Shown here: positions 21,275-46,493 of the stretch, one piece after another
How positions within the stretch are numbered: position 1 is the first letter of the stretch
How the letters are laid out: each line of letters starts with the position of its first letter
Assembly (NCBI RefSeq): GCF_003614925.1
Contig: NZ_QYLP01000012.1
Span: 1-64,000, forward strand
Source: Arthrobacter celericrescens
GTDB lineage: Bacteria > Actinomycetota > Actinomycetes > Actinomycetales > Micrococcaceae
Direction: 5' to 3'
Length of the DNA stretch: 64,000 nt
Translations under genes and position numbers: made by a program
The notes under the pieces: model-generated
Databases searched by the model: none
What the model was told of the DNA's origin: nothing
What the model saw: the letters and a program-made list of their open reading frames with translations, nothing else

Positions 21275-21308
21275 GCCAGGCCTCCTTTGTCCTCGTAGTT
21301 GTGTGTCA

Positions 21309-24973: not shown

Positions 24974-25877
24974 GGCCACCGTCCCCCTGTCCGTCAGGCG
25001 CACCGGCGGCGCCGCCGTCAGCGGCGGTCACTTCCTGGCGCGGCAGGGTGTCCTCGTCCTCGGCGCCGGCCCCCGGGCGGGGGGCGGTGGTGGCCACGCC
25101 GGCGTCGTTCAGGACGTTCTTCGCGTCCACCACCACAACCGTCACGTTGTCCCGCCCGCCGGACCGCAGGGCCGCCTGGATGAGGGCGTCCACGGCGTCC
25201 TGGGGGTGGCCCACGGTGCTGAGGATGCGGAAGATGTGCTCGTCGGCGAGTTCCCCGGTGAGCCCGTCGGAGCAGACCAGGATCCGGTCCCCCTCATGGA
25301 TGGGCAGGAGCCAGAAGTCGGCCTCGGTCTCGTCCCCGGTGCCCAGCGCACGGGTGACCACGTGGCGGCGCGGGTGGACGTTCGCTTCCTCGGACGTGAT
25401 GCTGCCGGCGTCCACCATTTCCTGGACCTCGGAGTGGTCCACGCTGACCTGCGCAAATTCCCCCTGGCTGAGCAAGTACGTGCGGGAGTCACCGATGTTC
25501 ATGACCAACCAGTACGGCAGCCCCATCTGTTCCACCACGACAACGCCGGACAGCGTGGTCCCGGCCCGGGCGCCGGTGGCGTTGCGGATGCGTGCGTCCG
25601 CGGCCAGCAGGCAATCCTGCAGCACGGCCGCCGTCGCGGTGCGGGTGCCGGTAGCCAGCTGCGGGTAACCACCCAGGGTGCGGACGCAGAGGCCGCTGGC
25701 GATCTCGCCGGCCTCGTGCCCGCCCATGCCGTCGGCCACCGCGAACACGGGATCGGAGGCTATGAACGAGTCCTCGTTGAGTTCGCGGCGGAGGCCACGG
25801 TCCGTGCCGTAGCCATAGCTCAGCCCGAATCCGGACTCGTTGGCGGTCGCAGCTGCGGCTGCGGGCTGTGAGTTCAT
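24960..25877 (-). CDS. PP2C-family Ser/Thr protein phosphatase
   Basis: 305 aa. The bacterial PP2C motifs are present: GLRRELNEDSF, VFAVADGMGGHEAGEIAS, VNIGDSRTYLL-type (here MNIGDSRTYLLSQG), ILVCSDGLTGEL and GRDNVTVVVVDA, supplying the acidic residues that bind two metal ions. It removes phosphate from Ser/Thr residues placed by the kinase of the same operon, like PrpC or PstP. It is cytoplasmic with no membrane segment, unlike mycobacterial PstP. The start overlaps the upstream RDD gene stop by 4 nt (ATGA). Its end overlaps the next gene by 14 nt, so the expression of the set is tightly coupled. Confidence 0.94.
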   Translation of the reverse strand: MNSQPAAAAATANESGFGLSYGYGTDRGLRRELNEDSFIASDPVFAVADGMGGHEAGEIASGLCVRTLGGYPQLATGTRTATAAVLQDCLLAADARIRNATGARAGTTLSGVVVVEQMGLPYWLVMNIGDSRTYLLSQGEFAQVSVDHSEVQEMVDAGSITSEEANVHPRRHVVTRALGTGDETEADFWLLPIHEGDRILVCSDGLTGELADEHIFRILSTVGHPQDAVDALIQAALRSGGRDNVTVVVVDAKNVLNDAGVATTAPRPGAGAEDEDTLPRQEVTAADGGAAGAPDGQGDGGHGAE

Positions 25878-29958: not shown

Positions 29959-31346
29959 GCGGCTGCCTTCCGGAGGACGAGGGCGAGGTCGTCGAGGTCG
30001 CCGACGGTCAGGACGGTCAGGTCTGCGATGTTCGCACGGGCCGCGGGGGCACCGGCCTGCACCCGCACGGCGAGGCTGCGCACGCCGGCGGGAACCGAGG
30101 CAGCCGCCGAACGCAGCTGGGTGGCGGTCACGCCGCTGCCCACGACGAAAAAGACCACCGAGGCGTTCGGGACGGTGTCGGCCAGGGTCCGGGCGAGGTC
30201 GACGGCGGTGCGCCGCATGGGTGCGCCCACGATCCTGGTCATGTCATCCAGGAGGTTGCGGCCGGTTTCGCAGCGCAACGGTCCCTTCTGCGTCAGGACG
30301 TCGAGCTCCCGCTGTTCGCGGATGGCCTGCCGGCCGATGGACGCAGCCACGGAGATCGCGAGTTCGAACTCGGTTTCCGATTCGTACTCGTCCGTGTTGA
30401 TGGACAGCGAAATGGCCAGGTGGGCGCGCCGGGTCTCTTCGAACTGGCGGACCATCAGCTTGTTGGTGCGGGCGGTGGTCTTCCAGTGGATGTGCCTGCG
30501 GTCATCGCCGGGCACGTAGTCGCGCAGGGCGTGGAAGGACACGTCGGCGCTGGAAAGCTCGGTGGTGGGCATGCCTTCGAGGTCGCGGATGAAACCGGCC
30601 GCCGAACCGGCCAGCACCGTGGTCTTCGGGTGCACGTACAGGTCCACCGGGTCCGTCCACAGGACGCGGCGTCGCAGCAGGTGCAGCGGATCGGCCCGCA
30701 CGGAGCGTACCGGGCCGACGACGATCACGGCACGGCGCGCCGTCGGGATCGTGAAGAGGTCCTCATGCACCTGGGCCGGCTTCATCCGGGGCAGGTGGAA
30801 GACCGCGGTGTTGCTGCCCACCGGAAGCTCGAGGTCCGCCGGCAGCAGCGGCCGGGTGGAGGTATTGGAGACAGCGATGCTGCCGACGGCGTCATCGCCC
30901 ACCGCCACGCGGGTCCGGGACATGTCGAGCACCACGCCGTAGGCGGAGCGGCCGAGGATGAACGCCACGGCGAAGAGGAACAGCAGGAAGGCCACGAGCG
31001 CTGCCGACTTCGCCTCCTGCCAGCCCCAGGACTGGCCGGCGATCCACAGCAGCACGGCGGCGGCCAGGACCACCCAGCCGAGGATGCTGACCACGGACAG
31101 GGAGGGCCAGGCGTACGCGAGCCAGAGGCTGCGTACCCTCTTCCAGAGCGGGGCGAGCCATTCTGCCAGGGCCTGGGACGCTTCGCGCCAGACGGCGGCC
31201 GGGTGCAGCTTCGACGGGAGCGTGCCCGGACGGGCGGCAGGCGCCTTGCCGGCCCCTCCCCCGAGGGCGCCGAGACGCTCCCTGAGCGGACCCAGGGAGC
31301 GTGTGACGGATGCAGCAGCCCGTTTCAAGGGTGTGCCGGTAGACAT
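29955..31346 (-). CDS. DUF58 membrane protein
   Basis: 463 aa. Two membrane helices at about 73-95 and 108-132 are followed by the DUF58 core with YVPGDDRRHIHWKTTART near residue 275 and a VWA-like fold around it (VVFFVVGSG near 395). DUF58 proteins accompany MoxR ATPases and are thought to act as their membrane-bound, metal-adhesion-site type partners in the assembly or maturation of extracytoplasmic complexes. The gene is 33 nt after moxR and overlaps the transglutaminase-like gene. A low-complexity N-terminal stretch precedes the helices. Confidence 0.88.
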   Translation of the reverse strand: MSTGTPLKRAAASVTRSLGPLRERLGALGGGAGKAPAARPGTLPSKLHPAAVWREASQALAEWLAPLWKRVRSLWLAYAWPSLSVVSILGWVVLAAAVLLWIAGQSWGWQEAKSAALVAFLLFLFAVAFILGRSAYGVVLDMSRTRVAVGDDAVGSIAVSNTSTRPLLPADLELPVGSNTAVFHLPRMKPAQVHEDLFTIPTARRAVIVVGPVRSVRADPLHLLRRRVLWTDPVDLYVHPKTTVLAGSAAGFIRDLEGMPTTELSSADVSFHALRDYVPGDDRRHIHWKTTARTNKLMVRQFEETRRAHLAISLSINTDEYESETEFELAISVAASIGRQAIREQRELDVLTQKGPLRCETGRNLLDDMTRIVGAPMRRTAVDLARTLADTVPNASVVFFVVGSGVTATQLRSAAASVPAGVRSLAVRVQAGAPAARANIADLTVLTVGDLDDLALVLRKAAA

Positions 31347-31379: not shown

Positions 31380-32351
31380 TCAGACGTTGGCGCGGTGCTG
31401 CGGGGCGGCGACGTCGTTGAGGACGCGCTGGAGGACGGCCTCGGCGGTGGCGCCGGAGAACTCTGCTTCCGGGTCCATGACGAAGCGGTGGGTCCAGACA
31501 ACCCCGGCCAGTTCCTTGATGTCGTCCGGCAGGACGTAGTTGCGTCCCTGCCCGGCCGCCCAGACCTTTGCCGCACGCACCATCGCCAAGGCACCACGCA
31601 CCGAGACGCCGAGCCTGGTTTCGGGGGCGTTGCGGGTCTCCTCGCACAGGCGCGAGATGTATTCGAGCACCGCTGAATCAATGTGGGTGGTGGCCGCGAG
31701 GTCAGCCATGTCGGCCACGGCCTGGGTGGTGATGATCGGACTGAGGTCGCGCGAACGGTCCTTCAGGTTGCTCCCGCCCAGCAGCTGCACGGTGGACGCG
31801 TGGTCCGGGTAGCCGATGGAGGTCTTGATGAGGAAGCGGTCCAGCTGGGCTTCGGGCAGGCGGTACGTGCCGGCCTGTTCGATCGGGTTCTGGGTGGCGA
31901 GCACCATGAACGGGCGGCCGGCTTCGTAGGTGGTGCCGTCCACGGTCACCCGGGACTCCTCCATGACCTCCAGGAGCGCGGACTGGGTCTTCGGCGAGGC
32001 ACGGTTGATTTCGTCGGCCAGCACAATGTTGCTGAAGATCGGGCCCTTGTGGAACTCGAACTTCTGGGTCTTCTGGTCGTAGATGGTCACGCCGGTGACG
32101 TCCGAGGGCAGCAGGTCAGGTGTGAACTGGATGCGGTTGTGGGAGCCTTGGACGGTGGCTGCGAGGGCCCGGGCCAGGGAGGTCTTGCCTGTGCCGGGGG
32201 CGTCCTCGAAAAGGACGTGGCCCTCGGCGAGCATCGCCGTGAAGGTCAGCCGGATGACGTGGGACTTGCCCAACACGGCCTGGCCGACGTTGCCGACCAG
32301 CTTTTCAAACGTGTCCGCGAACCAGGCCGCCTGCTCGCTTGTCATTGTCAT
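31380..32351 (-). CDS. MoxR-family AAA+ ATPase
   Basis: 323 aa. Walker A is DAPGTGKTSLARAL near residue 48-60, Walker B LADEINRASPKTQSALLEVMEE near 110, with sensor and arginine-finger segments (LATQNPIEQAGTYRLPEAQLDRF) standard for MoxR. It would work as a chaperone-like hexamer on the DUF58/transglutaminase-like pair downstream. The gene is 110 nt after the stop of the giant surface protein. I see no strong hairpin in that gap, so read-through is possible. Confidence 0.93.
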   Translation of the reverse strand: MTMTSEQAAWFADTFEKLVGNVGQAVLGKSHVIRLTFTAMLAEGHVLFEDAPGTGKTSLARALAATVQGSHNRIQFTPDLLPSDVTGVTIYDQKTQKFEFHKGPIFSNIVLADEINRASPKTQSALLEVMEESRVTVDGTTYEAGRPFMVLATQNPIEQAGTYRLPEAQLDRFLIKTSIGYPDHASTVQLLGGSNLKDRSRDLSPIITTQAVADMADLAATTHIDSAVLEYISRLCEETRNAPETRLGVSVRGALAMVRAAKVWAAGQGRNYVLPDDIKELAGVVWTHRFVMDPEAEFSGATAEAVLQRVLNDVAAPQHRANV

Positions 32352-32461: not shown

Positions 32462-35400
32462 CTAGCAGGGCCGGCTGCCGGACACAAAGTGCACGGTGTC
32501 TGCCCGGACCCAGCGGCCGCTGAGGTTCTTGCCCGAGGCCGAGGCCCCGCTGATGTGGAGCCAGCCGCTGCCGCCCCACGGGCTGCCGCAGCGGTCCACC
32601 GGCGTTCCGCCGTCGGTGGTGCTCAGCCACGGCGACGGAGCGCCGGGTCCGCCCGGGCTCGCCACGCCGTAGCAGCGCTTCGGCGTGCCGCCGTCGTACC
32701 CGTTGCCGCCGGTGACTTCGGTGCAGCTGTTGATGTCCGCACCGTTCACGGCGACGCGGTTCGGCGGCGGGGGCGGGGTCGGGTCGTTGCCGGTGGTGGC
32801 ATTGGCGCTGCCGATGCCGCCGGCCACCACGGTCACAGCACGGACCCTGAGGTTGTGCTGCTGGTCCCAGCCGCCGCCTCCGCGGTCGTAGCGGTTGGCC
32901 TTGCCCACATTGATCCAGCCGCCGTTGTCGTAGCTGACCTCGAAGTGGTCCAGCGGACGCCCGTTCATGTTCGGGTTGTTCCAGGTCCAGTGCACGTCGC
33001 CGTCACCGGTGGCGGACTTGCCGCCGTTGACGTTCGGGGCATCGGGCGGGCCGTAGGGGTTGCCGCTGCCGATGGCCTTGGCGTCGCCGGAGATGTTGGC
33101 CTTGATGGAGCGGGCCACGATGTTGACGGTGACGTCGGTGCCGTTCGGCTGGCCTCCGATGGTGCCGCCGCCGGGCGCGATGGGCCCGGAACCGTAGGCG
33201 GTGCGCCAGCTGTATTCGATCTCGCTCTCCTGCGAACCGTTGCGCTGGGCCGCGGTCAGTGGAGTGAAGGTCAGCCGCAGCTGCCCGCTGCTGCCGGTGG
33301 GCGCCACGGTGCCGCTGTTCACGGTGCCTGGCTTGCCCGCCGCGCGGGTGGGCGCCGAGGACTGGCTGGTGCCGCTGGTGCCGGCCTTGTTGGTGGCGGA
33401 AACCGTGAAGGTGTAGTCCGCCTCCGAGTTGTCCACCACCACGTTCTGGGCCGTGGTTCCGACCTTCTGGCTGCTGACCACTGAACCGCCGCGCAGGGTG
33501 GTCAGGGTGTAGGCCGAGACGGCGTCACCGTTGTTGTCCGGCGCGGCCCAGGTCACCCTGAGCTGGCTCTGGGAGCCGACCGGCTGGGCACTGGCCACCG
33601 TGGGCGCCGACGGCGTCGCCGGAACGCCCGCGGGCACCTCGGCCGCGGAGTAGGGGCTCCACTCGGAGGGGTCCTTGGCGTCGTTGCGGGCCAGGACGCG
33701 CACCTTGTAGGAGACACCGTTCGTCAGGCCCTTCCACACGTAGGTGGTGGAGGTCAGGTTCTGGATCTGCGGGTTCTGCCCTGCCGGGGCCGGCGAGATC
33801 TCCAGGTCGTAGGACTTGATCGGCGAGCCCTTGCTGGCAGGGGCGGTCCACGTGACCGCAAGCTGCTTGTCGCCGAACTTCAGGCCCGGCGCCAGCGGAG
33901 TATCCGGCTTGACGTCGGGACGTACCTCGGCCGAAGCCGGCGACGGCTCGGAATCGCCGATCGCGTTGGTGGCAGTCACCGTGAAGTGGTACTTCACGTT
34001 GTTGGTCAGGCCGTTGAGGGTGCAGGTATTGGCCGGGCAGTCCTGCTGGAATCCGCCCTCGCCCTTCACGGTGTATTTGGTGATGGCCGAGCCGCGGTCG
34101 GCCGGGGCCGTCCAGGTCAGCAGGGCGGTCCTGTCCCCCACGCTCTGCGCCTGCGGCGTCGACGGCGGCATCGGCTTGTCCTTGACGCTCAGCCGGATGC
34201 GCGCCGTGGCCTGGCGGGAGGGATCGCCGGTCTTGTCCGCCACCGTGTAGGCGACGATCATCGAGCCGGTGAACCCCGCGGACGGGGTGACCGTGACGGA
34301 GTCGCCGTTGGCCACGGCCGACCCCTCGCCCGTCTCGGTGACCGCGTTGACGATCTTCAGCGGAGTGTCCGGGAACGGGTTGCTGTCATTGGCCAGCACC
34401 TTGACTGTCACCGGTTTGCCGGCGGACGCGTTAGGTTCCACGTCGTCGCTCGCCACCGGCTTGGGGCGGTTGGACGCGGTCACTGAGAGCTTGTAGGTGG
34501 CCGTGGCCTCCAGGCCGCGCGGGTCCTTGGCCTTGACCTGGACGCTTCCGGCCACGCCTGGCTTCGCCTCGCCCTTTGCGCTCACGCGGAGTGTCCTGCC
34601 GTCGATCCTGGCGTCGAATCCTGCCGGGCTGTCGCCGACCACCTCGTACTTCATGTTTGCCGCGTCCTCGCCGTCGGGATCGCTGGTGAGGCGGCCCAGC
34701 TCGAGGCTGGCGGAGTCGTTCTGCGGCACTTCGAGGGAACTGCCCAGCAGCTTCGGAGGATTGTTCCGGTTGGGGTCCGGGAGCACCTTGGTGCGGATGC
34801 TCAGCGTGGCCTTTTGCCCGTTCGGATCGTCCGGGCCGGTGCCATCAGTGGCTTCGAAGGTGATGGAGCCGGGACCCACATAGTCCTTGCCCGCCGTGTA
34901 CTTGATGGCGGTGCCGCCGTTCGCCACCGGCTCTCCGCCGTCGGCGCCGATGAGCTTGATGCGGTCGGCCTGGCTCAGGCGGGGGCTGCGGCCGTCGCGG
35001 ACTTTCACCCATTCGTTGAGGTCAACAGTTACGGACTGGCCGGCGATGACCTCGATGACCTCGTCCTTGGCGAGGGTGGGAACCTGCTGGCCGATGCCCG
35101 GGACCCAGATGATCGCGGTGGACTTCTGTCCGTCCACGTCCTCCACGGTGTAGGGCACCAATTGCGGGCCGTCGGTCAGCTGGATCACCACGTTGCCGTC
35201 GTTGCCTGGCTTGGCGGTTTCCACGGCGGTGGCGATCTTCAGGTTCTCACCGACGCCGTCGGGATCCTCGTCGTTCTTCAGGACCGGCACGTCCACGGCC
35301 TTCTTGCCCATGGTCTGGGCCGAGGTGACACGGTCGTCGCGGGCGATCGGTGCCAGCAGCGGGATGTTGCCCTTGACGTTGACCCGGATGGTGGCACCGG

Positions 35401-38400
35401 CGGTGGCGCCGCGCTCGTCGACCACCGTGTACCGGAGGTTGACGATCCCTTCCTTCCCGGGTGCGGTCAGGATGATGCGTCCGCTGGTCTTGCTGACGTT
35501 GGCCTGGAGTGCGGGATCGGCTTCGATGCCGTCGGACTTGATGGCGATCCGGTCGCCGTCGGGGTCGGAATCGTTGGCGAGGGCGTCGACGGCGATCTGG
35601 CGGCCCGGGCGCACGGAGACGGTGTCGTCCACGGGGGCGGGTTTCTGGTTGTCTTCGCCCTGCGGGGCGATGCCGACAGTGACGGTTCCGGAGTTGACGG
35701 CACCCTGGCGGTCGATCACCTTGTAGCGGAAGGTATCGGTACCTGCGCCGTCGCCGGCGGCCACGAAGTCGATGAAGCTGCTGCCCACCGTCGCTGTACC
35801 CATGCCGGGCGTGCTGTCGATGCCGGTCAGCTGCACGGAGTCGCCGTCGGGATCGATGCCATCAAGCGGTACAGGGATGCGGACGGTGCCCCCGGCCACC
35901 ACGCGGGCGGTCAGGTTCTGCGGCTGCGGACGCGAGTTCTGCGTGCCCTCAAGGGGCAGGATGTGGATGGTCACCGCGGCAGCGCTCTTCTGGCCCTGCG
36001 GGTCCACCGCGTTGTAGATAGCGCGCACGGTCTTGGGCACGGAGCCGGCGATGAAGCGCAGCTTGTCCTCGGAGATGAAGGTCTTGCCGTCGGCCTCCGG
36101 GACGGTCTGCGCCAGGGCCGGGTCCACGTGCAGCTTCTCGCCCTGCGGGTGGGTGTCGTTGGCCAGGACCGGGACGGTGACGACGTCGTTGACGCGCACG
36201 TTCACCTCATCGGGTTTCGGCTGCGGTGCTTCGACGACGGCGGGAGCCGGCACCGGGACCACGGAGACCGTGCCGCTGGCGGACTTGTGCCCGTTGGAAA
36301 TCGTGTAGCGGAAGATGACCGGCTGCTGTGTGCCGAGGACGTCGGTGACCCGCAGGACGCTGTGGTCGATGACGCTGACGGACACCGTGGCGTCCTCAGG
36401 CAGGGTCACGGACTGCAGCACGAGGACGCCGCCGGAGGGATCGGAGTCGTTGGCCAGGGGGTCCACCAGCACGTTGCCGCCCACGGGGAGCAGCGCGACG
36501 TCGTGCACGGCCACCGGGTTCCCGGCGTCCTTGCCGGACTCGACGTCCACCCGGATCAGGCCCTGGGTGCTTTGCGGGCCGTTGCTGGCGATGTAGGTCA
36601 GGTACACGGGGCCGGGGGTGTTGCTGCGGAAGGTGAAGGTGCCGCCGTCGGTCACGGGGCCGAGCTCGGCCGGGCCGGCCGCCTCCACGTGGGCAAGGCG
36701 CAGGGCGCCGCCGTTGGGGTCGACGTCGTTCTTCAGCGGGGCGATCACCAGGTCCTGCCCGACGACGGCGGTCACGTGGTCCGCGTTGACCACCGGCTGC
36801 AGCGCCCCCGGCGGCCGGACGTTGATGACCACGCGGCCGGTGGCCGTGGCGCGGCCGTCCCAGACGGAGATGGTGACGTTCTTCTTGCCGGCGGTGGCGC
36901 CGGAGTCCTGGTAGGTCAGCAGGCCGTCGCGGCGGAACTTGACCTGGTCCTGCGGGTTGTCGGCTTTGGCGTCCATGAGGACGAGGTCGTCGCCGTCGGG
37001 GTCCATCCAGTCGGTGAGGATGTTCTGGCTGACGGTCTTGCCCTGTTCGACGAGCAGCGTGGTGGGGCTGGCGCGTTTGAAGACCGGTGCCTTGTTCTCG
37101 TCCGGTCCCACCACGTGCAGGGTGATCTTGCCGCCGGCGGACAGGCCGCGGCCGTCGGCGGCGTTGTAGTCGATGGTCTCGGTGCCGGGCTTGGCGTCGG
37201 CGGGAACGGAGATCTGGAAGGCGGAGCCGCCGTAGATGTTCTCGATGGACCCCGACTTGGGCGGATTGCCGCCGATCGAGGCGGTGAGGACGTCGCCGTC
37301 GGGGTCGGAGTCGTTGTCCAGCACGCTCATCACGGTGGTCCGGCCCGGGCGGGCGCCGATCTCGTCCGGTTTGGTTTCCGGCGGCCGGTTGGGCTTGGTG
37401 CGGTCCGGCAGCACGTTGATGGTGTTCTCGTCCGCGGAGTCCTCGTCCTGGTCGTCCGACTGGTTCTTCGGCGGGATGACGTCGTCCCAATTGTTGACCA
37501 GCTGCATGTTCTGGTTGACCATCCAGACGTTGCCGGAGTTCACGTCGTTGAGGACCACGAGGTCCCGGTTGACCCGGAACACGTAGCTCGGGGCACCGCT
37601 GGCCTTGGGCACATCGGCGGTCTTGTCGTCGGCGTCGGAGGTGCAGTCGCGGACGTACTTGTTGGCGCCGGCCCAGGCCGAGTGCGTGCAGCCGGCCACC
37701 TGCACCGGGGCGGCGGGCACGCCCTGGCCGCCGAAGGTCACGACGGCGGCGGTGGAGCCGTCAAGCGGTTGCTTGATGAGGGCCTTCGGGGTGGCGACGG
37801 CCACGTAGCTGCTTGCTTCGCTGCTTTGCTGCAGCTTGGCTTCACGGGCGTCCTGGAGCTGGAGCTTGCGCCCGCCCGGCAGGAACAGGTTTCCGCGGGC
37901 AGCGTCCAGGACCACCGGCTTGTCGCCGACGACCGCGAGCTGGATGTCGCCTGCGCCCTTGAGCTCGTCGACCTTCGTGGTTTCGGAGTCCTTCCGTTCG
38001 CCGTTGGCGTCCACCGAGGTGACGGTGATTTCACCCTTCTGCGGGTCCGCCGTGTAGATCCGGTTGTCCTGCCCGACGGCGGAAACCGCACCGGAGGAGG
38101 CCAGCAGCACCGGCTGCGTGCCTTCTTCGTCGAAGCTGTTGATCGTGGAGGGCGACATGGCCCAGACCCGGCCCCTGACCGGGTCGGTGACGGAGAGCAC
38201 TTCGGTGCCGAAGCTGACCTTCGAAGAGGACGGGAGCTGCTTGTCTCCGCCGAGCCGCAGGTTCGCCGCGGAAACCTGGTTGACCGTGGACCCGGTGCTG
38301 TCGTCGACGAAGACGTCGCTGGAGTTCTGCAGCACGTCGAAGGTGGTGCTGGCGGGCGTGACCGCACCGTCGAGCACCCGGGAGGGATAGTTCAGGCGGC

Positions 38401-38587
38401 CCACGGCGTTCTTGGTCTTGCTGACCACCCACACGCCGCCGTCGTTCAGTTCAAGCTCCGCGGTCTTGAAGCCCGGGTACAGCACGGCACCGGTCACCAG
38501 CAGCACGGTTGCCGCAGTGAATCCGGTGGTGGCGATGAACTTGTTTCGGCGTTTCCTGAGCCCCAATTTGCCGAATAAAGACGTCAC
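32462..38587 (-). CDS. giant surface protein 1: membrane anchor, Ig/cadherin-like repeats, Fn3 domains
   Basis: 2041 aa from a GTG with AAGGGAA upstream. A short basic N-terminus (RKRRNK) and one membrane helix (17-38) give an N-in, C-out signal anchor. Residues about 45-330 look like a beta-propeller-type region with two conserved Cys. A very conserved block (332-372, RVNRDLVVLNDVNSG to NNWDDVIPP) leads into an acidic linker. About ten repeats of roughly 100 residues (400-1470) each have an NDSDPDGD-like acidic motif, possibly binding calcium as in cadherin/VCBS domains. Three or more Fn3 domains (1470-1770) and a Cys-containing tail ending in Cys follow. It is probably an adhesin or envelope scaffold handled by the downstream cluster. 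Confidence 0.88.
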   Translation of the reverse strand: MTSLFGKLGLRKRRNKFIATTGFTAATVLLVTGAVLYPGFKTAELELNDGGVWVVSKTKNAVGRLNYPSRVLDGAVTPASTTFDVLQNSSDVFVDDSTGSTVNQVSAANLRLGGDKQLPSSSKVSFGTEVLSVTDPVRGRVWAMSPSTINSFDEEGTQPVLLASSGAVSAVGQDNRIYTADPQKGEITVTSVDANGERKDSETTKVDELKGAGDIQLAVVGDKPVVLDAARGNLFLPGGRKLQLQDAREAKLQQSSEASSYVAVATPKALIKQPLDGSTAAVVTFGGQGVPAAPVQVAGCTHSAWAGANKYVRDCTSDADDKTADVPKASGAPSYVFRVNRDLVVLNDVNSGNVWMVNQNMQLVNNWDDVIPPKNQSDDQDEDSADENTINVLPDRTKPNRPPETKPDEIGARPGRTTVMSVLDNDSDPDGDVLTASIGGNPPKSGSIENIYGGSAFQISVPADAKPGTETIDYNAADGRGLSAGGKITLHVVGPDENKAPVFKRASPTTLLVEQGKTVSQNILTDWMDPDGDDLVLMDAKADNPQDQVKFRRDGLLTYQDSGATAGKKNVTISVWDGRATATGRVVINVRPPGALQPVVNADHVTAVVGQDLVIAPLKNDVDPNGGALRLAHVEAAGPAELGPVTDGGTFTFRSNTPGPVYLTYIASNGPQSTQGLIRVDVESGKDAGNPVAVHDVALLPVGGNVLVDPLANDSDPSGGVLVLQSVTLPEDATVSVSVIDHSVLRVTDVLGTQQPVIFRYTISNGHKSASGTVSVVPVPAPAVVEAPQPKPDEVNVRVNDVVTVPVLANDTHPQGEKLHVDPALAQTVPEADGKTFISEDKLRFIAGSVPKTVRAIYNAVDPQGQKSAAAVTIHILPLEGTQNSRPQPQNLTARVVAGGTVRIPVPLDGIDPDGDSVQLTGIDSTPGMGTATVGSSFIDFVAAGDGAGTDTFRYKVIDRQGAVNSGTVTVGIAPQGEDNQKPAPVDDTVSVRPGRQIAVDALANDSDPDGDRIAIKSDGIEADPALQANVSKTSGRIILTAPGKEGIVNLRYTVVDERGATAGATIRVNVKGNIPLLAPIARDDRVTSAQTMGKKAVDVPVLKNDEDPDGVGENLKIATAVETAKPGNDGNVVIQLTDGPQLVPYTVEDVDGQKSTAIIWVPGIGQQVPTLAKDEVIEVIAGQSVTVDLNEWVKVRDGRSPRLSQADRIKLIGADGGEPVANGGTAIKYTAGKDYVGPGSITFEATDGTGPDDPNGQKATLSIRTKVLPDPNRNNPPKLLGSSLEVPQNDSASLELGRLTSDPDGEDAANMKYEVVGDSPAGFDARIDGRTLRVSAKGEAKPGVAGSVQVKAKDPRGLEATATYKLSVTASNRPKPVASDDVEPNASAGKPVTVKVLANDSNPFPDTPLKIVNAVTETGEGSAVANGDSVTVTPSAGFTGSMIVAYTVADKTGDPSRQATARIRLSVKDKPMPPSTPQAQSVGDRTALLTWTAPADRGSAITKYTVKGEGGFQQDCPANTCTLNGLTNNVKYHFTVTATNAIGDSEPSPASAEVRPDVKPDTPLAPGLKFGDKQLAVTWTAPASKGSPIKSYDLEISPAPAGQNPQIQNLTSTTYVWKGLTNGVSYKVRVLARNDAKDPSEWSPYSAAEVPAGVPATPSAPTVASAQPVGSQSQLRVTWAAPDNNGDAVSAYTLTTLRGGSVVSSQKVGTTAQNVVVDNSEADYTFTVSATNKAGTSGTSQSSAPTRAAGKPGTVNSGTVAPTGSSGQLRLTFTPLTAAQRNGSQESEIEYSWRTAYGSGPIAPGGGTIGGQPNGTDVTVNIVARSIKANISGDAKAIGSGNPYGPPDAPNVNGGKSATGDGDVHWTWNNPNMNGRPLDHFEVSYDNGGWINVGKANRYDRGGGGWDQQHNLRVRAVTVVAGGIGSANATTGNDPTPPPPPNRVAVNGADINSCTEVTGGNGYDGGTPKRCYGVASPGGPGAPSPWLSTTDGGTPVDRCGSPWGGSGWLHISGASASGKNLSGRWVRADTVHFVSGSRPC

Positions 38588-38868
38588 AGATTCAATTCCC
38601 TTGCATCACGGCCGCCCCCAGGCAGCCTCGAACCTCACGGCCTCCGACCGGTGATCATGCGATTCCGCCGTACCCCCATACGGCGGCGGAATTTGTCCCT
38701 ACGACTATCGCACGGGCGTCCCCCTGTTACAAAGGGAGCCCGGATACCACCGGCGCTCCAGAATAATCAAGGTCCCGCGGCCGCCGCGATGGGGAAAGGT
38801 CCCCATCGCGGGGCGGCCGCATCAGTGCCCGGATAGGATGTGGGCCGCCACAATGCAGGAGGATCGTC
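38588..38868. other. divergent upstream region with two hairpins
   Basis: The 281 nt between the divergent giant-protein and glycosyltransferase genes hold no gene. An 8-bp stem at 38665-38672/38679-38686 has a C-rich loop. A second, stronger inverted repeat (38777-38794/38801-38820, 18 pairs with a 2-nt bulge) lies about 50 nt before the glycosyltransferase. TAGGAT at 38834-38839 may be its -10, and AGGAGG its ribosome-binding site. The hairpins may insulate the two promoters or act as regulatory elements. Confidence 0.5.
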
Positions 38869-40371
38869 ATGACGCAGCTAGCCCGGACCGGCAGGGCCGG
38901 TACCGAGGGCACCCGTTTTCGTGAGAAACCCCACAGCCTGTGGCTTTGGGCGATCGGGCTGCTGGGCTTCCTGGTTCCCTTGGCTAAAGCCTGGGTGCCG
39001 TCCTTCTGGAACGACGAAATCACCACGATTTCCGCAGCGCGCCGCTCGCCGGAACAGCTGTTTGAACTCCTCAAGTCGGTGGACGCCGTCCACGGGGCGT
39101 ACTACTTGCTGATGCATTTCTGGACGTCGCTCTTCGAGTTCTCCGAGCTGTCGATGCGCCTCCCGTCCGCCATTGCCGTGGGGCTGGCGTGCGCCGGGAC
39201 CGTGGTGATCGGCCGCAAGCTTGGCAACGAATTCGTGGGCCTCGGCGCCGGGCTCGTCCTCGTGTTCCTGCCTCGGATGGTCTGGGCGGGAACCGAGGCC
39301 CGGCAGTCTGCCCTCATCGCCCTGTTTGCGGTGGCGCTGACCCTGTTCCTGATCCGGGCGTGGAACTCGGGGCACGTCATTGACTGGGTGCTCTACTCAG
39401 TGTGTGCCGCGGCCGGAGTGTATGTGTTCATGTTCTTTGCCTTGGCTATCGCGGCCCACGTAGTCGCCGCCGTCCTGCTGCGCCGCCGTGTGCTGGCTGT
39501 GCTCGTTTCGGCGCTGGCTGCCGCAATTGCCGCGTCCCCGTTCCTGCTGTTTGCCCTGGGACAGAAGGGACAGGTCGCCTGGATCCAGGACCGTTCCCTC
39601 CTCCAGAACATCCAGGCGATTGCCGTCAAACAGTTCTTCTACGGAGATGACCGGCCCACCGGGAACCTGCCGCCCGGCTGGGTCCTGGGAGCCGTCGTCG
39701 TCCTGGGCCTTCTTCAGCTTGGCCTCGCGGTCCTGGGACTGATCCACAGCGCCGGGCATACGGAGTTCCGGGGACTCGCGGTGCTGGCGGCCTGCGCCGT
39801 GGCTGTACCGATCGGTGTGTTGCTGCTCGTCAGCATCCTCGTTCAGCCCGTGTATGTTCCCCGGTACCTCACCTTTACTGCACCAATGTTTGCCTTGCTG
39901 GTCGGGCTCGGGCTGGACAAGGTCCGAAGCCTTGGCAGCAGGAAACTGGCGGCGGCGGCCGCTTTGGTACTCCTGGCCGGCCTGCCCCAGCAGTTGACCT
40001 TGAAGAGCCTGGTCAACGGGCCCCGGGACACGGAGCGCCACGTCGCTGCCCTGCTCGACGCCGACGGTCCCGGCCCCGCAGCCGTGGTCTACGGTCGTCC
40101 CGAGGACCGCGACCCCGCACTGGCTTATCCGGCATCGTTCTCCCGTTTGACGGACCTGTCACTGAAGGCTTCCCCGGAAGAGTCCGGGACGCTCTGGGGT
40201 GTCAACAAGGAAGTCACCGCGGCCGAGCTGGAACACCGCGGCAGAGTTTACTTCATCGGCTCAGGCACGGGCCCGACCCCGGATCCGGGTGCATTCCAAC
40301 AGGCCGGATGCACCCAGACCAGGGCCACAGCGACGGAGCGGCTACGCTTCGTGGTCTACGACTGCTCCTAG
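38869..40371 (+). CDS. GT39-family membrane glycosyltransferase
   Basis: 500 aa, about 10-11 membrane helices. The first external loop has the GT39/PMT Asp-Glu pair in PSFWNDEITT (Asp49, Glu50), followed by HGAYYLLMHFW and SELSMRLPSAIAVG, typical of bacterial dolichyl/polyprenyl-phosphate-sugar dependent transferases (PMT/ArnT-like). Such enzymes add a sugar, often mannose, to proteins or glycans outside the membrane. Its place between two giant extracellular proteins suggests they are acceptors (inference). AGGAGG precedes the ATG. Its TAG stop shares CTAG with the stop of the convergent second giant gene. Confidence 0.87.
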   Translation: MTQLARTGRAGTEGTRFREKPHSLWLWAIGLLGFLVPLAKAWVPSFWNDEITTISAARRSPEQLFELLKSVDAVHGAYYLLMHFWTSLFEFSELSMRLPSAIAVGLACAGTVVIGRKLGNEFVGLGAGLVLVFLPRMVWAGTEARQSALIALFAVALTLFLIRAWNSGHVIDWVLYSVCAAAGVYVFMFFALAIAAHVVAAVLLRRRVLAVLVSALAAAIAASPFLLFALGQKGQVAWIQDRSLLQNIQAIAVKQFFYGDDRPTGNLPPGWVLGAVVVLGLLQLGLAVLGLIHSAGHTEFRGLAVLAACAVAVPIGVLLLVSILVQPVYVPRYLTFTAPMFALLVGLGLDKVRSLGSRKLAAAAALVLLAGLPQQLTLKSLVNGPRDTERHVAALLDADGPGPAAVVYGRPEDRDPALAYPASFSRLTDLSLKASPEESGTLWGVNKEVTAAELEHRGRVYFIGSGTGPTPDPGAFQQAGCTQTRATATERLRFVVYDCS

Positions 40372-43300
40372 CACCGCGGCGCCCCCAGGCCGGCGGGATC
40401 GGGAAGGTGCGTGTGACCGGCGATGATGTAGCGCCCGACGTTGCGGTACGAACCGTCCTCGATCCGCCACCACCGGTGCATGCCCGTCCAGTTGTCGCTC
40501 TGGTCGATGTAGCAACGGACCACGATCGCCCCTTGATCGGACGAGTACATCCACGGAGGCTGGTTGCCGCCCTTGCCGTCACAGGTGAACCTGTCCGGGT
40601 CGTAGTTGGAACCACCCAGGGTGAAGGAGCAGGAGCGGACCACGGCGTTGGGATTCATCGTGGTGGTCCACACCCCTTGCCGTCCGGACTTGGCGCTGGC
40701 AGTGGCGGTTCCACCCGGGGTTCCCAAGGAGTTGAAGGTCTGCACCGTGATGCTGTGCGATTCCTCGAAGCCGGCGGTGTTTATGGTCCGGCTGCCCGCC
40801 GCGGCAACGGTTTCCCATCCCCCGCCGTCGATCCTGATCCTGGTCTCGGCAACGTCGTTGGTGGACGCCGGGGGCGAGGCCCAGTTCAAGGTCAGGGACT
40901 TTTGGTTCATGCCGCCGTCCTGCCCTGAGGCCGAGGGCGTGCCCGGCGAACCGTAGGGCGTGGTGCTCGACGGCGCGCTGGCATCGGAACTCGGTGCCAC
41001 CGAGGAGCTGGCGGTAACGGTGATGGTGGTCCGCTGCCCGTTGGCGAAACCGCCCACGACTCCCCCGGGCCGGATCGGTCCGCCCTGGCCCGTGGAGGCG
41101 CTGAAGCTGTAGCTGATTTCATTCGCGCCAGAGCCGTTCCTCTGGCCGGCGTCCAGCTCCCGGAAGTCGATCCGGACCTGCCCGCCCGCTCCGCCGGTGG
41201 CTGCCGGGGAGACGCTGACGCCGGAGACGGTGCCGAGTTTGCCAGTAGCCCGGCGCGGGGCGGACGGGGCGCTGACGGCGCCCTTCCCTGCTTTGTTTTC
41301 TGCCTGGACGGTGAAGGTGTAGGCGGTTTCCGAGGTGCCGGCGGTGAACGTGGCGGTGCGTACATTGCCCGGAATGGTCTGGGTCTGGGCGGCGCGTCCG
41401 CCGCCGCTCATCGTCACGTAATAGTTCCTGACCGGGTCGCCGTTGGTGACCGGTTCGCTCCAGTCGGCCCGCAACTGGTTCTGCGAGCCGACCGCGGAGA
41501 CGACCGCCGTCGTCGGGGCCGCCGGGGCCGCCGGCACTCCGGCGGGGTTGTCCTCCGACGAGTAGTTGCCCCATTCGGAGGGTCCAAGGTCGTTCACGGC
41601 CTGGGCCCGGACCTTGTATTTGACGCCGTTCGTCAGGCCCTGCCACACGTAGCTGAGGCCGGCCACGTTGTTCTTCACGGCGATGCCATTGGCCGGGGAC
41701 GGGGAGATCTCCAGGTTGTAGCCCTTGACCGGCGAGCCTTCGGTCTTCGCGGCCGTCCAGTTGATGGCCATGGTCTTGTCGCCGGCCTTCACCGTGGGCG
41801 CGTCCGGCGGCGAGGGCTTCTCGTCCGGACGGATCTCGTTCGACGGCGGCGAAGGCGTGGAATCCCCCACCTCGTTGCTGGCGGTGACCGTGAAGACGTA
41901 CTTGACGTTGTTGGTCAGCCCGGTCAGGGTGCAGGTAGTGGTGGCGCACTCCTGCGAGAACCCTGCGGACTTCACGGTGTATTTGGTGATCTCCGCACCG
42001 TTGTCCGACGGCGGCGCCCATTTCAGCACGGCGGTCCGGCTGCGCACCTCGCTGGCGACGGGCGCCGAAGGCGCATCGGGTTCTGCCCGGACGGTCAGCC
42101 GGATCCTGGCCGAGGCCTGGCGGGACGGATCCCCGGTCTTGTCCGCAACCGTGTACTTGACCACCATGACGCCCTTGAAGTCCCCTGCGGGTGTCACCGT
42201 CACGGCGTCCCCCGCGATCACCGGCTGGCCTGCGGCCTGCCCGGTCTCCACGACGGCCGACACGATCTTCAGCGGGGTGTCCTCGAAGGGGTTGACGTCG
42301 TTGGCGAGCACCTTGACGGTTTCGCTGCGCCCGGCATTGGCGGCGGCAACGGTGTCGTCATTGGCCGACGGCGGGCGCCGCTTGGACGCGACGGTCACCG
42401 CGGTGATGGTGGCCTGGACCGCCGGTGAGCGGCCGTCGGTGACCTTCACCGGGATGCTTCCCTTCGCCCCGGCGGACGCCGACGCGTCCGCGGAAACCCG
42501 CAGCACGGCCCCATCGAGGGTGACCCCGAAGCCGGCCGGCGGCGTGCCGGCGAGTTCGAACTTCAGGTTTCCCTGGTCGCGCTGGTCCACGTCCCTGGCC
42601 AGGTTGGCCAGCTCAAGCTCCTCGGAATCGCCCCGCGGCACCTCGACGGTCGCCCCGGCGAAGGTGGGTGGATGGTTGGCGTTGGGATCCGGCACCACCC
42701 TCGTCATGATCGTCAGGGTGGACTTCAGGCCCTGCGCATCGTCCGGGCCGGTGCCGTCGGTCACTTCGAAGGTGACCGAGCCCGGGCCGACGTAGTCGGG
42801 CAACGCCGCGTACCGGAGTGCGTCGCCGTCGCCGGCCACCACGTTCCGCGGCTGCGCGCCCTGGACCCGGACCTTGTCCGCCACGGTGATGCGCGGTTTC
42901 CGGCCGTCCCGGACGCGCACGTAGTCAGCCAGCTGGACGGTGAGGTCCTTCCCGGACATCACCTCGACCGGATCGTTCCTCGAAAGCGTCGGGTACTGCA
43001 GTCCCTGTCCCGGGACCCAGATGATGCCGGTTGCGCTTTGCCCGTCCACGTCCGTGACCGTGTAGGGAATCAGCTGTTCGCCCGGGGCGAGGGTGACCAC
43101 CACGTGGCCGTCGGCGCCGGGGCGGGCGTTCGCCGTGCCGGCGGGCAGCGTGACTTTCAGCTCGGCGGCCACGCCGTCCGGGTCGGAGTCGTTTTCCAGC
43201 ACCGGAACGTCGACGGCGGTCTTGCCGAGGGTTTCGGCTAGCGTCACCCTGTCGTCAACAGCGAGCGGGGCATGGAGGGTGGCTTCCGGGCTGGTGCGGA

Positions 43301-46300
43301 CCCGGACGACGGCGGCCGCCTGGGCCTTCTTGTCGTCCTGGATCCGGTATCCGACGCTGCCGTTGCCGGCGGTGGCCGGCGCCGTCACCAGCACCTGGCC
43401 CTGCTGTCCCGGTTCCGCCGCCAGTCCCGGGCTGGCCTCCAGGCCGTTGCCAACCAAGGCGATGGGGTCGCCGTCGGGATCGGAATCGTTGCCGAGGACC
43501 GGTACGGCAATCCGGCGGCCGGGGCGCACGTCCACCGCGTCATCCACGGCGAGGGGTTTCTGGTTGTCCGGGTTCGGCGGGGCGATGCCGACCAGCACGG
43601 TCCCGGTGTTTTCGGCTCCGATCCGGTCCCGGACCCGGTAACTGAACGTGTCTGTTCCCGCCGAATCCGCGCCGGCGGTGTATTCAAGGTAGCCATCCTT
43701 GACGACGGCGGTGCCTGCCGCGGGCGCCTTGTCGATGCCGGTCAACTGGACGGAGTCGCCGTCGGCGTCGATGCCGTCCAGGGGCACGGCGATCTTCGCG
43801 GTGGTCCCGGCGATGATCCGCGCAGTCAGGCTCCTGGGCTCGGGCCGGCTGTTGCGTTCGTCGTCCCGGGCCCGGATCCGGATGGTCACCTGTTCGGAGT
43901 CGCTCTGCCCGGAGTCGTTGCGGACCTTGTAGATCGCGTAGACGGTCTTGGCCTTGCTGCCGGCCACGAAGCGGAGGGTATTCCCGGAGACGAACGTCTG
44001 GCCGTCGGCGGCATCGGGCTGCTGGGCCAGCTTCGGGTCCAGCGAGAGCCTGCCGCCGTTCGGGTCGGTGTCGTTGTCCAGCACCGGGATCGTGACGACG
44101 TCGCCCGCCCGGACCGGGACGTCATCCGCCTTCGCCTGCGGTGCCTGCAGCCTTGCCGGCGTGGGGACGACGACGACGGCCACCTCGCCGCTCGCCTGCG
44201 CCTTGCCGTTGGAGATCGTGTACTTGAAGGTCAGCTGGCCGGTGGCATTGACGTCCCGCACCCGCACCACGGAGTGGTCCAGGACGGACACGGCGACGGG
44301 CAGTCCGTCCACTCCGCTGACGGACTGCACCACGAGCACGCCGCCGGAAGGGTCGGAGTCGTTGCCCAGCACGTCCACCACGGTGCTCCCGCCGCGGGGC
44401 AGCAACGCGATGTCGCGCACCGCCACCGGGACCCCGCCTCCGCTGCCGGCCACGACGTCGACGCGCACCAACTGCTGGGCGCTGGCAGGTCCGTTGGTCA
44501 CCAGATAGCTGACGTAGTGCGGACCCGTGACGGCCGAGTTGAAGGTGAAGGTCTGCTGGTCGGCGCCCGTGGGGGCCGTGGACTGGCCGTCCGGCGTCAC
44601 CTGTGCCAAACGCAGGGAACCGCCTTGCGGATCGGTGTCGTTCTTGAGCGGGGCAATCACGGTGTTCTGGCCGGCGACGGCCACCACATGGTCCGCGTTT
44701 GCTACGGGCGGCAGGGCTCCCGGCGGCCGGACGTCCACGGTGATTCTTCCTTCGGCTTCCCTTGTGCCGTCGGACACCGTGATGGTGAGGGTTTTCTTCC
44801 CCGGTCCGGTTCCGGAGTCCTGGAAGGTGAGCAGGCCGTCCGGCCGGATCCGGACCTGGTCGCCAGGGTCGCTGCTCCTGGCGGACACCGCGAAGACGTC
44901 GTCGCCGTCGGGGTCCATCCAGTCGGTGAGGACGTTCTGGGTGAGCGTCTTCCCTGCGGCGAGCACGAGGGTGGTACTGCGGTTCGGCTTCTGCCGCGGC
45001 GCGGAGTTTTCGCCCGCCGGGACCACGCGCAAGGTGACTTCCGAGGAGGCGGAACCGCCGCGGCCGTCGTCGACGGTGTACTTGAAGGCCTCGTTGCCCG
45101 CCTTGCCAGCGCCCACGGCCACCTGGAAACCGGTGCCGCCGTAGACGGGCGATACCGTGCCCAGCCGCGCCGGTTCCGGGGTCCGCACTGTCAGGACGTC
45201 GCCGTCGGGGTCGCTGTCGTTGTCCAGGACCGGAAGGACCGTGGTCTTGCCGGCGCGCACCCCGAAGGCGTCGCTCTTGGCCACGGGCGGGCTGTTCGGC
45301 TTCGTCCGGTCCGGGAGGACGGTCTGCTGGACCTCGTCCGCGGAGTCCTTGTCGGCGTCGTCGGAGGTCTCCTTGGGCGGGATGACGTCGTCCCAGTTGT
45401 TAACCAGCTGCATGTTGCGGTTGACCAGCCAGACGTTGCCGGAGTTGACGTCGTTCAGGACCACCAGGTCGCGGTTGACCCGGAACACGTAGCTGGGCGA
45501 GGCGCTGGCCGAAGGAACGGCCTTGGCCTGGTCGTCGGCGTCGTTGGCGCAGTCGCGGACGTAGCGGTTGCTGCCGGACCATGCAGCGTAGGCGCAGCCG
45601 CCCAGCTGCACGGGCGCCGCCGGGACGCCTTCGCCTCCGCTGGCAGCGGTCCGCGCCGTGCCGCCGTCGAGGGGCTGCAGGAGCAGTGCCCCCGGGGTCG
45701 CGACGGCGACGGCGCCGGTGTCGGCGCCGGGCTGCTGCAGCCGGGCGTCGCGGGCGGAGTCGAGGTGGACTTTCTGCCCGCCGGGCAGGTGGAGGGTTCC
45801 GGATTCCCGGTCCAGCACGACGGGCCGGCCGCCCACGGTGGTGAGGTCGAGTTCGCCGGCGCCCTTCAGTTCGTCCACGGTGCGGCTGGTGGTGTCCCGG
45901 GAAAGTCCGTCGGCATCGAAGGTGCTGCTCGAGATCCTGCCGGTGGCCGGGTCCACGGTGTGCACCGCGTCGTCGCTGCCCACCACGGCCGCCACGCCCG
46001 GTTCCGAGTCGAGGAACGGCTCCGCCGCGGCGGGGTCGAAACCGCCCAGGCCCGACGCCGGGATGACCCAGACCTTGCCGGCGGCGGGATCGGTGATGGC
46101 AAGGATGGTCCTGCCGAAGCCGACCCTCGCGCCCGCGGGCAGTTTGCGGTCCCCGCCGAGGCGCATGTTCGCGGCGCTGACCGGGTTGAGGTTGCTGCTG
46201 CTCCGGTCATCGACGAAGACCGCGCTCTCCTGCTGCAGGACGTCGAAGTCCACACTGGCCGGGGTGACGGCGCCGTCGAGCATTTTGGCCGGGTAGTTGA

Positions 46301-46493
46301 GCCGGCCGACGGAGTTGCGGGACTTGCTGGTCACCCAGACGCTGCCGTCGTTGAGGTCCACCTCGCTGGTCTTGAACCCGGGATACAGCACCGCACCGGC
46401 CACCAGCGCACCGCCAGTGGCCATGACGACGGCGGCCTTGATCCACCGGCCGGGACGGCGCCTCGGGGCGCGGCCATCCGGGAACTTGGACAT
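40368..46493 (-). CDS. giant surface protein 2, collinear paralogue of protein 1
   Basis: 2041 aa, the same length as the other. N-terminal basic segment and membrane helix (18-38) ending in VLYPGFKT at the same residue numbers. The block at 332-372 is nearly identical in protein and strongly similar in DNA (about 37470-37592 versus 45375-45497). The ten acidic repeats occur in the same order with matching variants (NDSDPDGD, WMDPDGDD, NDTDPQGG, GIDADGDS), then Fn3 domains and a divergent C-terminal tail ending in Cys. This is an old duplication that kept its domain register. GGGGGAT precedes the ATG. The gene has its own 185-nt upstream region and is not in the MoxR cluster operon. Confidence 0.88.
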   Translation of the reverse strand: MSKFPDGRAPRRRPGRWIKAAVVMATGGALVAGAVLYPGFKTSEVDLNDGSVWVTSKSRNSVGRLNYPAKMLDGAVTPASVDFDVLQQESAVFVDDRSSSNLNPVSAANMRLGGDRKLPAGARVGFGRTILAITDPAAGKVWVIPASGLGGFDPAAAEPFLDSEPGVAAVVGSDDAVHTVDPATGRISSSTFDADGLSRDTTSRTVDELKGAGELDLTTVGGRPVVLDRESGTLHLPGGQKVHLDSARDARLQQPGADTGAVAVATPGALLLQPLDGGTARTAASGGEGVPAAPVQLGGCAYAAWSGSNRYVRDCANDADDQAKAVPSASASPSYVFRVNRDLVVLNDVNSGNVWLVNRNMQLVNNWDDVIPPKETSDDADKDSADEVQQTVLPDRTKPNSPPVAKSDAFGVRAGKTTVLPVLDNDSDPDGDVLTVRTPEPARLGTVSPVYGGTGFQVAVGAGKAGNEAFKYTVDDGRGGSASSEVTLRVVPAGENSAPRQKPNRSTTLVLAAGKTLTQNVLTDWMDPDGDDVFAVSARSSDPGDQVRIRPDGLLTFQDSGTGPGKKTLTITVSDGTREAEGRITVDVRPPGALPPVANADHVVAVAGQNTVIAPLKNDTDPQGGSLRLAQVTPDGQSTAPTGADQQTFTFNSAVTGPHYVSYLVTNGPASAQQLVRVDVVAGSGGGVPVAVRDIALLPRGGSTVVDVLGNDSDPSGGVLVVQSVSGVDGLPVAVSVLDHSVVRVRDVNATGQLTFKYTISNGKAQASGEVAVVVVPTPARLQAPQAKADDVPVRAGDVVTIPVLDNDTDPNGGRLSLDPKLAQQPDAADGQTFVSGNTLRFVAGSKAKTVYAIYKVRNDSGQSDSEQVTIRIRARDDERNSRPEPRSLTARIIAGTTAKIAVPLDGIDADGDSVQLTGIDKAPAAGTAVVKDGYLEYTAGADSAGTDTFSYRVRDRIGAENTGTVLVGIAPPNPDNQKPLAVDDAVDVRPGRRIAVPVLGNDSDPDGDPIALVGNGLEASPGLAAEPGQQGQVLVTAPATAGNGSVGYRIQDDKKAQAAAVVRVRTSPEATLHAPLAVDDRVTLAETLGKTAVDVPVLENDSDPDGVAAELKVTLPAGTANARPGADGHVVVTLAPGEQLIPYTVTDVDGQSATGIIWVPGQGLQYPTLSRNDPVEVMSGKDLTVQLADYVRVRDGRKPRITVADKVRVQGAQPRNVVAGDGDALRYAALPDYVGPGSVTFEVTDGTGPDDAQGLKSTLTIMTRVVPDPNANHPPTFAGATVEVPRGDSEELELANLARDVDQRDQGNLKFELAGTPPAGFGVTLDGAVLRVSADASASAGAKGSIPVKVTDGRSPAVQATITAVTVASKRRPPSANDDTVAAANAGRSETVKVLANDVNPFEDTPLKIVSAVVETGQAAGQPVIAGDAVTVTPAGDFKGVMVVKYTVADKTGDPSRQASARIRLTVRAEPDAPSAPVASEVRSRTAVLKWAPPSDNGAEITKYTVKSAGFSQECATTTCTLTGLTNNVKYVFTVTASNEVGDSTPSPPSNEIRPDEKPSPPDAPTVKAGDKTMAINWTAAKTEGSPVKGYNLEISPSPANGIAVKNNVAGLSYVWQGLTNGVKYKVRAQAVNDLGPSEWGNYSSEDNPAGVPAAPAAPTTAVVSAVGSQNQLRADWSEPVTNGDPVRNYYVTMSGGGRAAQTQTIPGNVRTATFTAGTSETAYTFTVQAENKAGKGAVSAPSAPRRATGKLGTVSGVSVSPAATGGAGGQVRIDFRELDAGQRNGSGANEISYSFSASTGQGGPIRPGGVVGGFANGQRTTITVTASSSVAPSSDASAPSSTTPYGSPGTPSASGQDGGMNQKSLTLNWASPPASTNDVAETRIRIDGGGWETVAAAGSRTINTAGFEESHSITVQTFNSLGTPGGTATASAKSGRQGVWTTTMNPNAVVRSCSFTLGGSNYDPDRFTCDGKGGNQPPWMYSSDQGAIVVRCYIDQSDNWTGMHRWWRIEDGSYRNVGRYIIAGHTHLPDPAGLGAPRC

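Follow-up and report, generated by a model that had tools for sequence, protein, structure and literature searches.

The closest described relatives of the genes analysed here belong to the PFNA operon of Bifidobacterium, reported to run pkb2-fn3-aaa-atp-duf58-tgm-prpC-hyp-fha (PMC8430577). In B. longum its FN3 protein comprises 1994 residues, with two fibronectin type III (Fn3) domains at 1494-1671 (PMC10688814), and the C-terminal region of FN3 has been described as the most variable part among bifidobacteria (PMC12607495). PFNA and FN3 are presented as Bifidobacterium-specific and tied to host immunity (PMC8430577, PMC6803598), and neither evidence of recombination in the set studied nor orthologues in other organisms are said to have been found (PMC6803598). 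The mycobacterial moxR operon is described as resembling PFNA, and DUF58 as related to vWA (PMC12067865). Here we analyse a 64,000-nucleotide stretch of Arthrobacter celericrescens (contig NZ_QYLP01000012.1, positions 1 to 64,000; the window), which carries two giant genes, copies A and B. By their sequences both appear to be members of an actinobacterial family of giant surface proteins, the FN3 type of the PFNA operon. They probably encode membrane-anchored stalks of fixed build that present an exchangeable recognition tip, a function that we infer in part. The two genes and their predicted parts are as follows.

32462..38587, minus strand: copy A, giant FN3/Big_9 protein of 2041 aa, first gene of the operon (GTG start, open reading frame read 38587->32462)
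40368..46493, minus strand: copy B, second giant FN3/Big_9 protein of 2041 aa, a paralogue absent in close relatives (ATG start, read 46493->40368)
38480..38536, minus strand: membrane helix of copy A, residues 18-36 (hydropathy maximum; helix in the model)
37541..38371, minus strand: predicted membrane-proximal beta-propeller of copy A, about residues 73-349 (alignment; low-confidence model)
34187..37393, minus strand: 11 Ig-like (Big_9) repeats of copy A, residues 399-1467 (Pfam, segmentation)
33353..34186, minus strand: three Fn3 domains of copy A, residues 1468-1745 (Pfam; model pLDDT 88.8)
32768..33352, minus strand: two predicted Fn3-like beta domains (Fn4-5) of copy A, residues 1746-1940, in the variable block (model strands, alignment, mosaic identity)
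32465..32767, minus strand: exchangeable tip of copy A, type T4, about the last 95-100 residues
40371..40673, minus strand: exchangeable tip of copy B, type T2

Both frames lie on the minus strand and, as the first-pass annotation had stated, each specifies 2041 residues; VLYPGFKT starts at residue 35 in A and B alike, and the block at residues 332-372, described there as almost identical, matches at 38 of 41 positions, compared with a mean of 21.6 over all 41-residue windows. Pfam likewise recovers the Fn3 domains, assigning Big_9 and fn3 to both proteins. Global alignment gave 52.8% identity over 2018 columns with a score of 5203, against -49 to -132 for five shuffles, and identity per 100 residues was 41-75% to residue 1800 and 32-34% beyond it. 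All 14 repeat segments (11 Ig-like, three Fn3) found their best match in their own counterpart, at 43-66% identity; the best off-diagonal identity between A and B was 37%, and Ig repeats within A averaged 25%. Because the alignment is full-length and the repeats pair in order, the collinearity reflects descent from one ancestral gene rather than convergence, and the comparison indicates that A and B are old duplicates of that gene. Recent gene conversion between the copies was considered for block 332-372 but is not needed, since the block is conserved throughout the wider family, in which R338, N340, L346, N347, G352 and W367 are invariant across 30 sequences. Two details of the initial description were revised. 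The acidic repeats do follow the same order in both proteins, but they had been counted as ten; our segmentation gives 11 Ig-like repeats, the ninth of which is without the acidic motif, and the strict D.[DN]..G-type motif occurs only 4-5 times per protein, with DPxG variants elsewhere. The terminal Cys proposed as a shared trait was rejected as a conserved family feature, being found within the last three residues of only 27/53 A copies and 36/39 B copies.

The identical length had been read as a sign of strong constraint on both protein length and domain register. The register is indeed conserved; the exact equality is uninformative, and the alternative named at the outset, equal lengths arising from unrelated indels, holds for the length and not for the register. 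Between A and B there are 23 indel runs amounting to 23 residues each way, the running offset drifting from -6 to +6 and ending at 0, and the same indels given random signs cancelled in 6.8% of trials. Among 37 genus pairs measured, excluding L060 and L063 (one copy without an anchor match), two were of equal length, the window being one of them, where independent draws from the A and B length distributions predict 2.5%; B-minus-A differences ran from -4 to +22. Equal length was consequently rejected as a signal: the shared 2041 residues are a chance match with odds of roughly one in fifteen.

What has been kept across the order is the arrangement of domains and an approximate length of 2000 residues. 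Counted from the YPG anchor up to the stop codon, A measured 1991-2008 residues (52 copies, standard deviation 4.8) and B 2001-2015 (38 copies, standard deviation 4.3); in a larger genus set, measured from anchor motif to stop, 90/92 A copies fell at 1990-2008, the other two at 2050 and 2058, and all 58 B copies at 2001-2015. No whole repeat has been gained or lost in the genus copies, as judged by length. In other families of the order, 40 giants, with the membrane helix placed by hydropathy, had a median of 1992 residues after the helix; 32 lay within 1915-2055, five at 1736-1796 and three at 2082-2185, with extremes of 1736 and 2185. The clustering of these 32, together with the 1994 residues given for B. 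longum FN3 (PMC10688814), would suit a length-sensitive filament or ruler whose total length is directly selected, as the first-pass annotation had suggested. That interpretation is improbable, given that A and B agree in length in only the two pairs, that viable family members about 200 residues shorter exist (5/40), and that indels are not consistently compensated: squared net length change divided by summed squared indels was 0.60 in A-B, 0.72 in A-A and 1.80 in B-B pairs, ratios that give no consistent sign of compensation.

The part of the giants that actually varies is the C-terminal tip. Clustering of the last 95 residues (average linkage, 50% cut) divided 92 distinct A copies into five groups (35, 32, 16, 5 and 4) and 58 B copies into another five (31, 18, 5, 3 and 1). 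Mapped on trees of the first 1400 stalk residues, tip type requires 19 changes in A (minimum 4; shuffled labels average 45.6) and 10 in B (minimum 4; shuffled labels average 23.8). These figures mean that tips are mostly inherited yet often replaced; well-supported branches alone force 7, 5, 6, 2 and 4 changes for the five A tip groups taken singly, and the four T1 rows sit at four places in the A stalk tree. Among sampled near pairs, defined by a stalk identity of at least 90%, tips belonged to different clusters in 67/242 A pairs and 5/98 B pairs, with median tip identities of 30% and 42%, respectively.

At the DNA level the A pair L072/L167 is the clearest case. Its stalk identity is 94-98% between 2.5 and 1.1 kb ahead of the stop codon; it falls to 90, 72, 50, 65, 61 and 54% per 200 bases as far as 55 bases past the stop, and returns to 93% and then to 89-98% in MoxR and DUF58. 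L054 and L072 show 93-96%, then 86, 78 and 52-67%, then 77% and 89-98%, and in L047/L079 and L052/L061 less similar and more uneven stalks (73-90% and 68-90%) precede a drop to 49-64% with recovery in MoxR. The DNA of the B copies L053 and L200 aligns at 94.7% as far as 324 bases upstream of the stop, and the alignment resumes immediately beyond the stop. Stalks are under low dN/dS (0.01-0.13 in five A pairs, 0.04-0.25 in two B pairs), and tip dN jumps to 0.6-0.9 in pairs with different tips. In near A pairs with the same tip, the median identity of the Fn4-5 stretch is only 54%, which implies that this stretch is also exchanged on its own. Some B pairs with the same tip match more closely in the tip (84-86%) than over most of the stalk (about 60-80%). 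Collectively, the trees and identity profiles indicate that C-terminal tips are exchanged by recombination between related strains.

Silent cassettes as a source of new tips were sought and rejected: matches to a tip model, found in 48/61 genus genomes, were by position the ends of giants or of broken giants, and no tip domain was detected outside giants or their fragments in the 61 genomes at the sensitivity of this model, which also missed the tips of a third copy (C). Nor does the tip correspond to a known domain, an assignment rejected after a Pfam search returned no family for the window tip and a single match, at E 0.81, among 26 tips.

A long conserved stalk with a replaced C-terminus also recalls polymorphic toxins and contact-dependent inhibition, in which the variable C-terminus would be a delivered effector. 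This explanation is highly unlikely here. The immunity gene that should follow the variable part is absent after copy A, and has no room, because moxR follows directly, starting 110 bases past the copy A stop; DNA identity is restored no more than about 250 bases from the stop, the ten tip clusters are apparently one fold with two invariant Cys, and none of the 26 tips has a Pfam toxin match.

Structure prediction adds detail at both ends of the rod. Residues 1455-2041 were modelled at a mean pLDDT of 88.8 (45 sequences) as five Fn3-like domains followed by a tip of lower certainty (pLDDT by block 54-86); matches of this model in the PDB were Fn3 arrays only, e.g. titin and contactin, and are uninformative on the tip. 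Residues 16-500 were modelled weakly (mean pLDDT 58.9), with about residues 120-295 confident, and this model matches WD40/NHL-type propellers (best Z 15.2, rmsd 3.8 over 243 residues). Cys300 and Cys315 of the propeller region are invariant in the wider family, one row of the alignment excepted. A beta-propeller beside the membrane is thus supported, not proven. A sortase anchor (LPXTG, C-terminal helix, positive tail) is absent in A and B, whose C-termini are Cys-containing globular tips. The sequences themselves show a membrane helix at the N-terminus, Ig-like and Fn3 repeats whose order is fixed, and a recombining tip; the propeller next to the membrane and the two further Fn3-like domains before the tip are predicted.

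A constant rod under purifying selection, combined with an exchanged end domain and an unexchanged next gene, argues for a presenting stalk with a recognition tip. The membrane-anchored rod would cross the cell wall and hold the tip outside. A beta domain is 3.5-4.5 nm long and the cell wall 20-40 nm thick, so that 16 beta domains would reach some 55-70 nm, beyond the wall. The tip would bind something, be it another cell, a surface or a glycan, or be a phage contact site; phage contact, adhesion or kin recognition may be its role. The conserved Fn3 region and moxR would serve as flanks for homologous recombination among strains, which would replace the tip and change what is bound, with the rod remaining under purifying selection.

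Several observations weigh against this interpretation. Binding, surface location and wall crossing are steps that we infer, and the propeller model is of low confidence (mean pLDDT 58.9). Tips are largely inherited with the stalk (19 changes compared with 45.6 for shuffled labels), 27/89 inner branches of the A stalk tree have poor support, and how many tip families are counted hinges on the 50% cut, T2 and T3 being 44-49% alike. The edges of the exchanged block are less sharp in pairs other than L072/L167, and the separate exchange of Fn4-5 makes the block a mosaic rather than one clean cassette. B stalks are mosaic as well. Finally, since the tip model missed C-copy tips, distant silent cassettes could have been overlooked.

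Copy number differs among relatives. Among the matches listed for 81 genus genomes, at least 65 carry A, complete or broken, at least 46 of them also B, and at least six a third copy, C, located elsewhere and about 47% identical. In a tree of 42 sequences (including 12 A, 11 B and 6 C rows), A, B and C each fall on one side of a supported branch; that A and B each form one supported group points to one old duplication. The otherwise collinear loci of Arthrobacter silvisoli and A. cupressi (L153, L154) have neither B nor the adjoining opposite-strand gene (window ~38811-46593), and A. sp. ISL-30 (L156) likewise has no B. Its absence from relatives shows B to be dispensable, and the comparison suggests an older, accessory duplicate that carries a tip of its own. 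In a second genus, one genome (G120, locus L114) carries a tandem pair of different composition, one member placed next to A+B and the other next to C, which implies either several origins of tandem arrangements or their reshuffling. Broken or frame-shifted giants occur in G030, G053, G026 and G058, as pseudogenes or assembly errors. Across the order, giants are present in 47/99 sampled genomes.

Downstream of copy A the operon continues on the same strand, and the gene between B and A lies outside it.

31380..32351, minus strand: MoxR-family AAA ATPase (Pfam)
29955..31346, minus strand: DUF58 protein, start uncertain (Pfam)
27490..29958, minus strand: TgpA-type membrane transglutaminase (Pfam)
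25874..27889, minus strand: RDD and FHA protein, start uncertain (Pfam)
24960..25877, minus strand: PP2C phosphatase
23051..25003, minus strand: FHA protein with a Pro-rich middle (Pfam)
21309..23486, minus strand: Ser/Thr protein kinase with a membrane helix, start probably 23054
20570..21358, minus strand: conserved operon protein with no Pfam match, FHA-like by eye
16128..20573, minus strand: EssC/EccC-type FHA-FtsK/SpoIIIE ATPase, 1481 aa
38869..40371, plus strand: PMT_2 glycosyltransferase-like gene between B and A, outside the operon

The resemblance to PFNA extends from the giant to its neighbours. As in bifidobacterial FN3, the giant has a membrane helix, and its Pfam Fn3 domains, at about 1474-1646 of 2041 residues, occupy a position comparable with the 1494-1671 of 1994 in B. 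longum; fn3, MoxR, DUF58 and transglutaminase follow one another in that order, and PP2C, FHA and kinase genes are also present. Here, however, the kinase lies downstream rather than directly upstream of fn3, a difference in gene order and not in content, and the locus further differs in an operon ending in an EssC-type ATPase, in two tandem giants and in tip exchange by recombination. In 39 loci of other genera (regions up to 20 kb), DUF58 and transglutaminase accompany FN3 in all 39 and MoxR in 37. A family of the order with small genomes (f4) is 25-32% identical to the giants over the N-terminus, and its loci L139 and L146 have the order kinase-FN3-MoxR-DUF58-transglutaminase-PP2C. The kinase, phosphatase, FHA proteins, MoxR-DUF58 pair, transglutaminase and EssC-type ATPase would, to judge from their linkage, build the surface structure, modify it or export it.

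Binding of host cytokines has been reported for bifidobacterial FN3. The shared domain order and operon core would suggest it here too, yet it is scarcely credible as the function: the giant family spans many families of the order, and the closest relatives with a name are genomes of Arthrobacter, Pseudarthrobacter and Paenarthrobacter, genera of soil bacteria. The operon also bears some likeness to the MoxR-vWA-beta-propeller ternary systems (Pfam bpMoxR), with a weak bpMoxR match (2.2e-10), DUF58 and the predicted propeller in the giant. In contrast to those systems, a membrane-anchored rod would here hold the propeller outside the cell, and AAA_3 is a far better match for MoxR (3.6e-63).

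Other genes around the giants complete the neighbourhood. Among the loci searched (L026-L065, L072-L083 and L153-L219), the PMT_2 gene at 38869-40371 recurred, with 75% identity, only in L027 and L155, apparently one genome (Arthrobacter sp. SW1). Immediately upstream of B and on its strand, 46679-47965 encodes an adenylate/guanylate cyclase-type protein with Ad_Cy_reg, and directly after the ATPase gene, 15402-16007 encodes 201 aa with a signal-like N-terminus, a Pro-rich middle, a C-terminal helix and no Pfam match.

The last gene of the operon raises the relation to type VII secretion. Its product shares with EssC/EccC ATPases the FHA part, a two-part membrane region, FtsK/SpoIIIE domains and, in relatives, WXG100 neighbours, and phmmer matched it to EccC, EccC5 and YukB structures. 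Within the genus, an EssC orthologue (80-85% identity) was present in 12/12 tested A-bearing genomes (of 65) and in 0/16 without A, two of the latter (G010, G050) having a distant ATPase, 31% identical. In the same 99 genomes of the order, by a hand count that ignores kinship, a giant occurs in 26/28 genomes with a full-length ATPase orthologue (over 1000 bits) and in 21/71 others; ATPase and giant are linked within 30 kb on one contig in 19 of these 26, lie far apart in five and are on separate contigs in two. At L130, L141, L143 and L148 the two are a few genes apart even though the operon is otherwise reduced. Among fetched loci outside the training set of the model used, 6/9 have WXG100 genes after the ATPase, as do 13/16 when its seven training loci are included, the 16 having been chosen, not drawn at random.

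In Firmicutes type VII systems, EsaA/YueB is the wall-spanning element. The giants could by analogy belong to the structure of a type VII-like secretion apparatus, with their rod as the wall-spanning element around the EssC-type ATPase, and the ATPase in the copy A operon, its co-occurrence and linkage with giants across the order, the joint presence or loss of ATPase and A in the genus and the WXG100 genes in the independent loci all speak for it. We nevertheless regard this as doubtful. Of the order genomes with giants, 21 are without this full-length ATPase orthologue and five have it unlinked. No WXG100 gene was detected in window 1-34000 (E up to 1, model of 8 relatives), nor after the ATPase in the same-genus locus L223 or in L227 and L235, and a Pfam scan of ten operon proteins (E up to 0.01), with no structural search of them made, returned no EsaA/EssB/EssA/EccB/EccD-type family. 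Compared with type VII secretion loci, the window shows no WXG100 gene, no other apparatus genes were recognised in that scan, and the ATPase sits with MoxR-DUF58-transglutaminase and a giant FN3 protein. Moreover, a pure apparatus part would not be expected to carry exchangeable tips. The only WXG100 gene of the genome above the curated cut-off lies on another contig (C91:49866-50120), away from the ATPase. No literature joining the PFNA operon to type VII secretion was found in a search that left most subscription journals outside.

Returning to the stalk with its exchangeable tip, a broader proposal can be made only tentatively: the PFNA operon may be a phospho-regulated surface module of a type VII-like machine across the order, with the FN3 giant as wall-spanning rod, the exchangeable tip serving strain-specific recognition (cell-cell, surface or phage) and bifidobacterial cytokine binding a late side use. 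Because giants and the EssC-type ATPase co-occur, whether the operon is functionally tied to type VII secretion can be tested. Giants of this build with such neighbours, in Arthrobacter and in 47/99 sampled genomes of the order, would make PFNA/FN3 an old actinobacterial surface system, open to study in easily grown soil strains. Since the rod is constant in build and the tip recombines, nature supplies strain pairs whose genes are otherwise nearly alike, and comparing such pairs directly offers a way to look for the tip's ligand.

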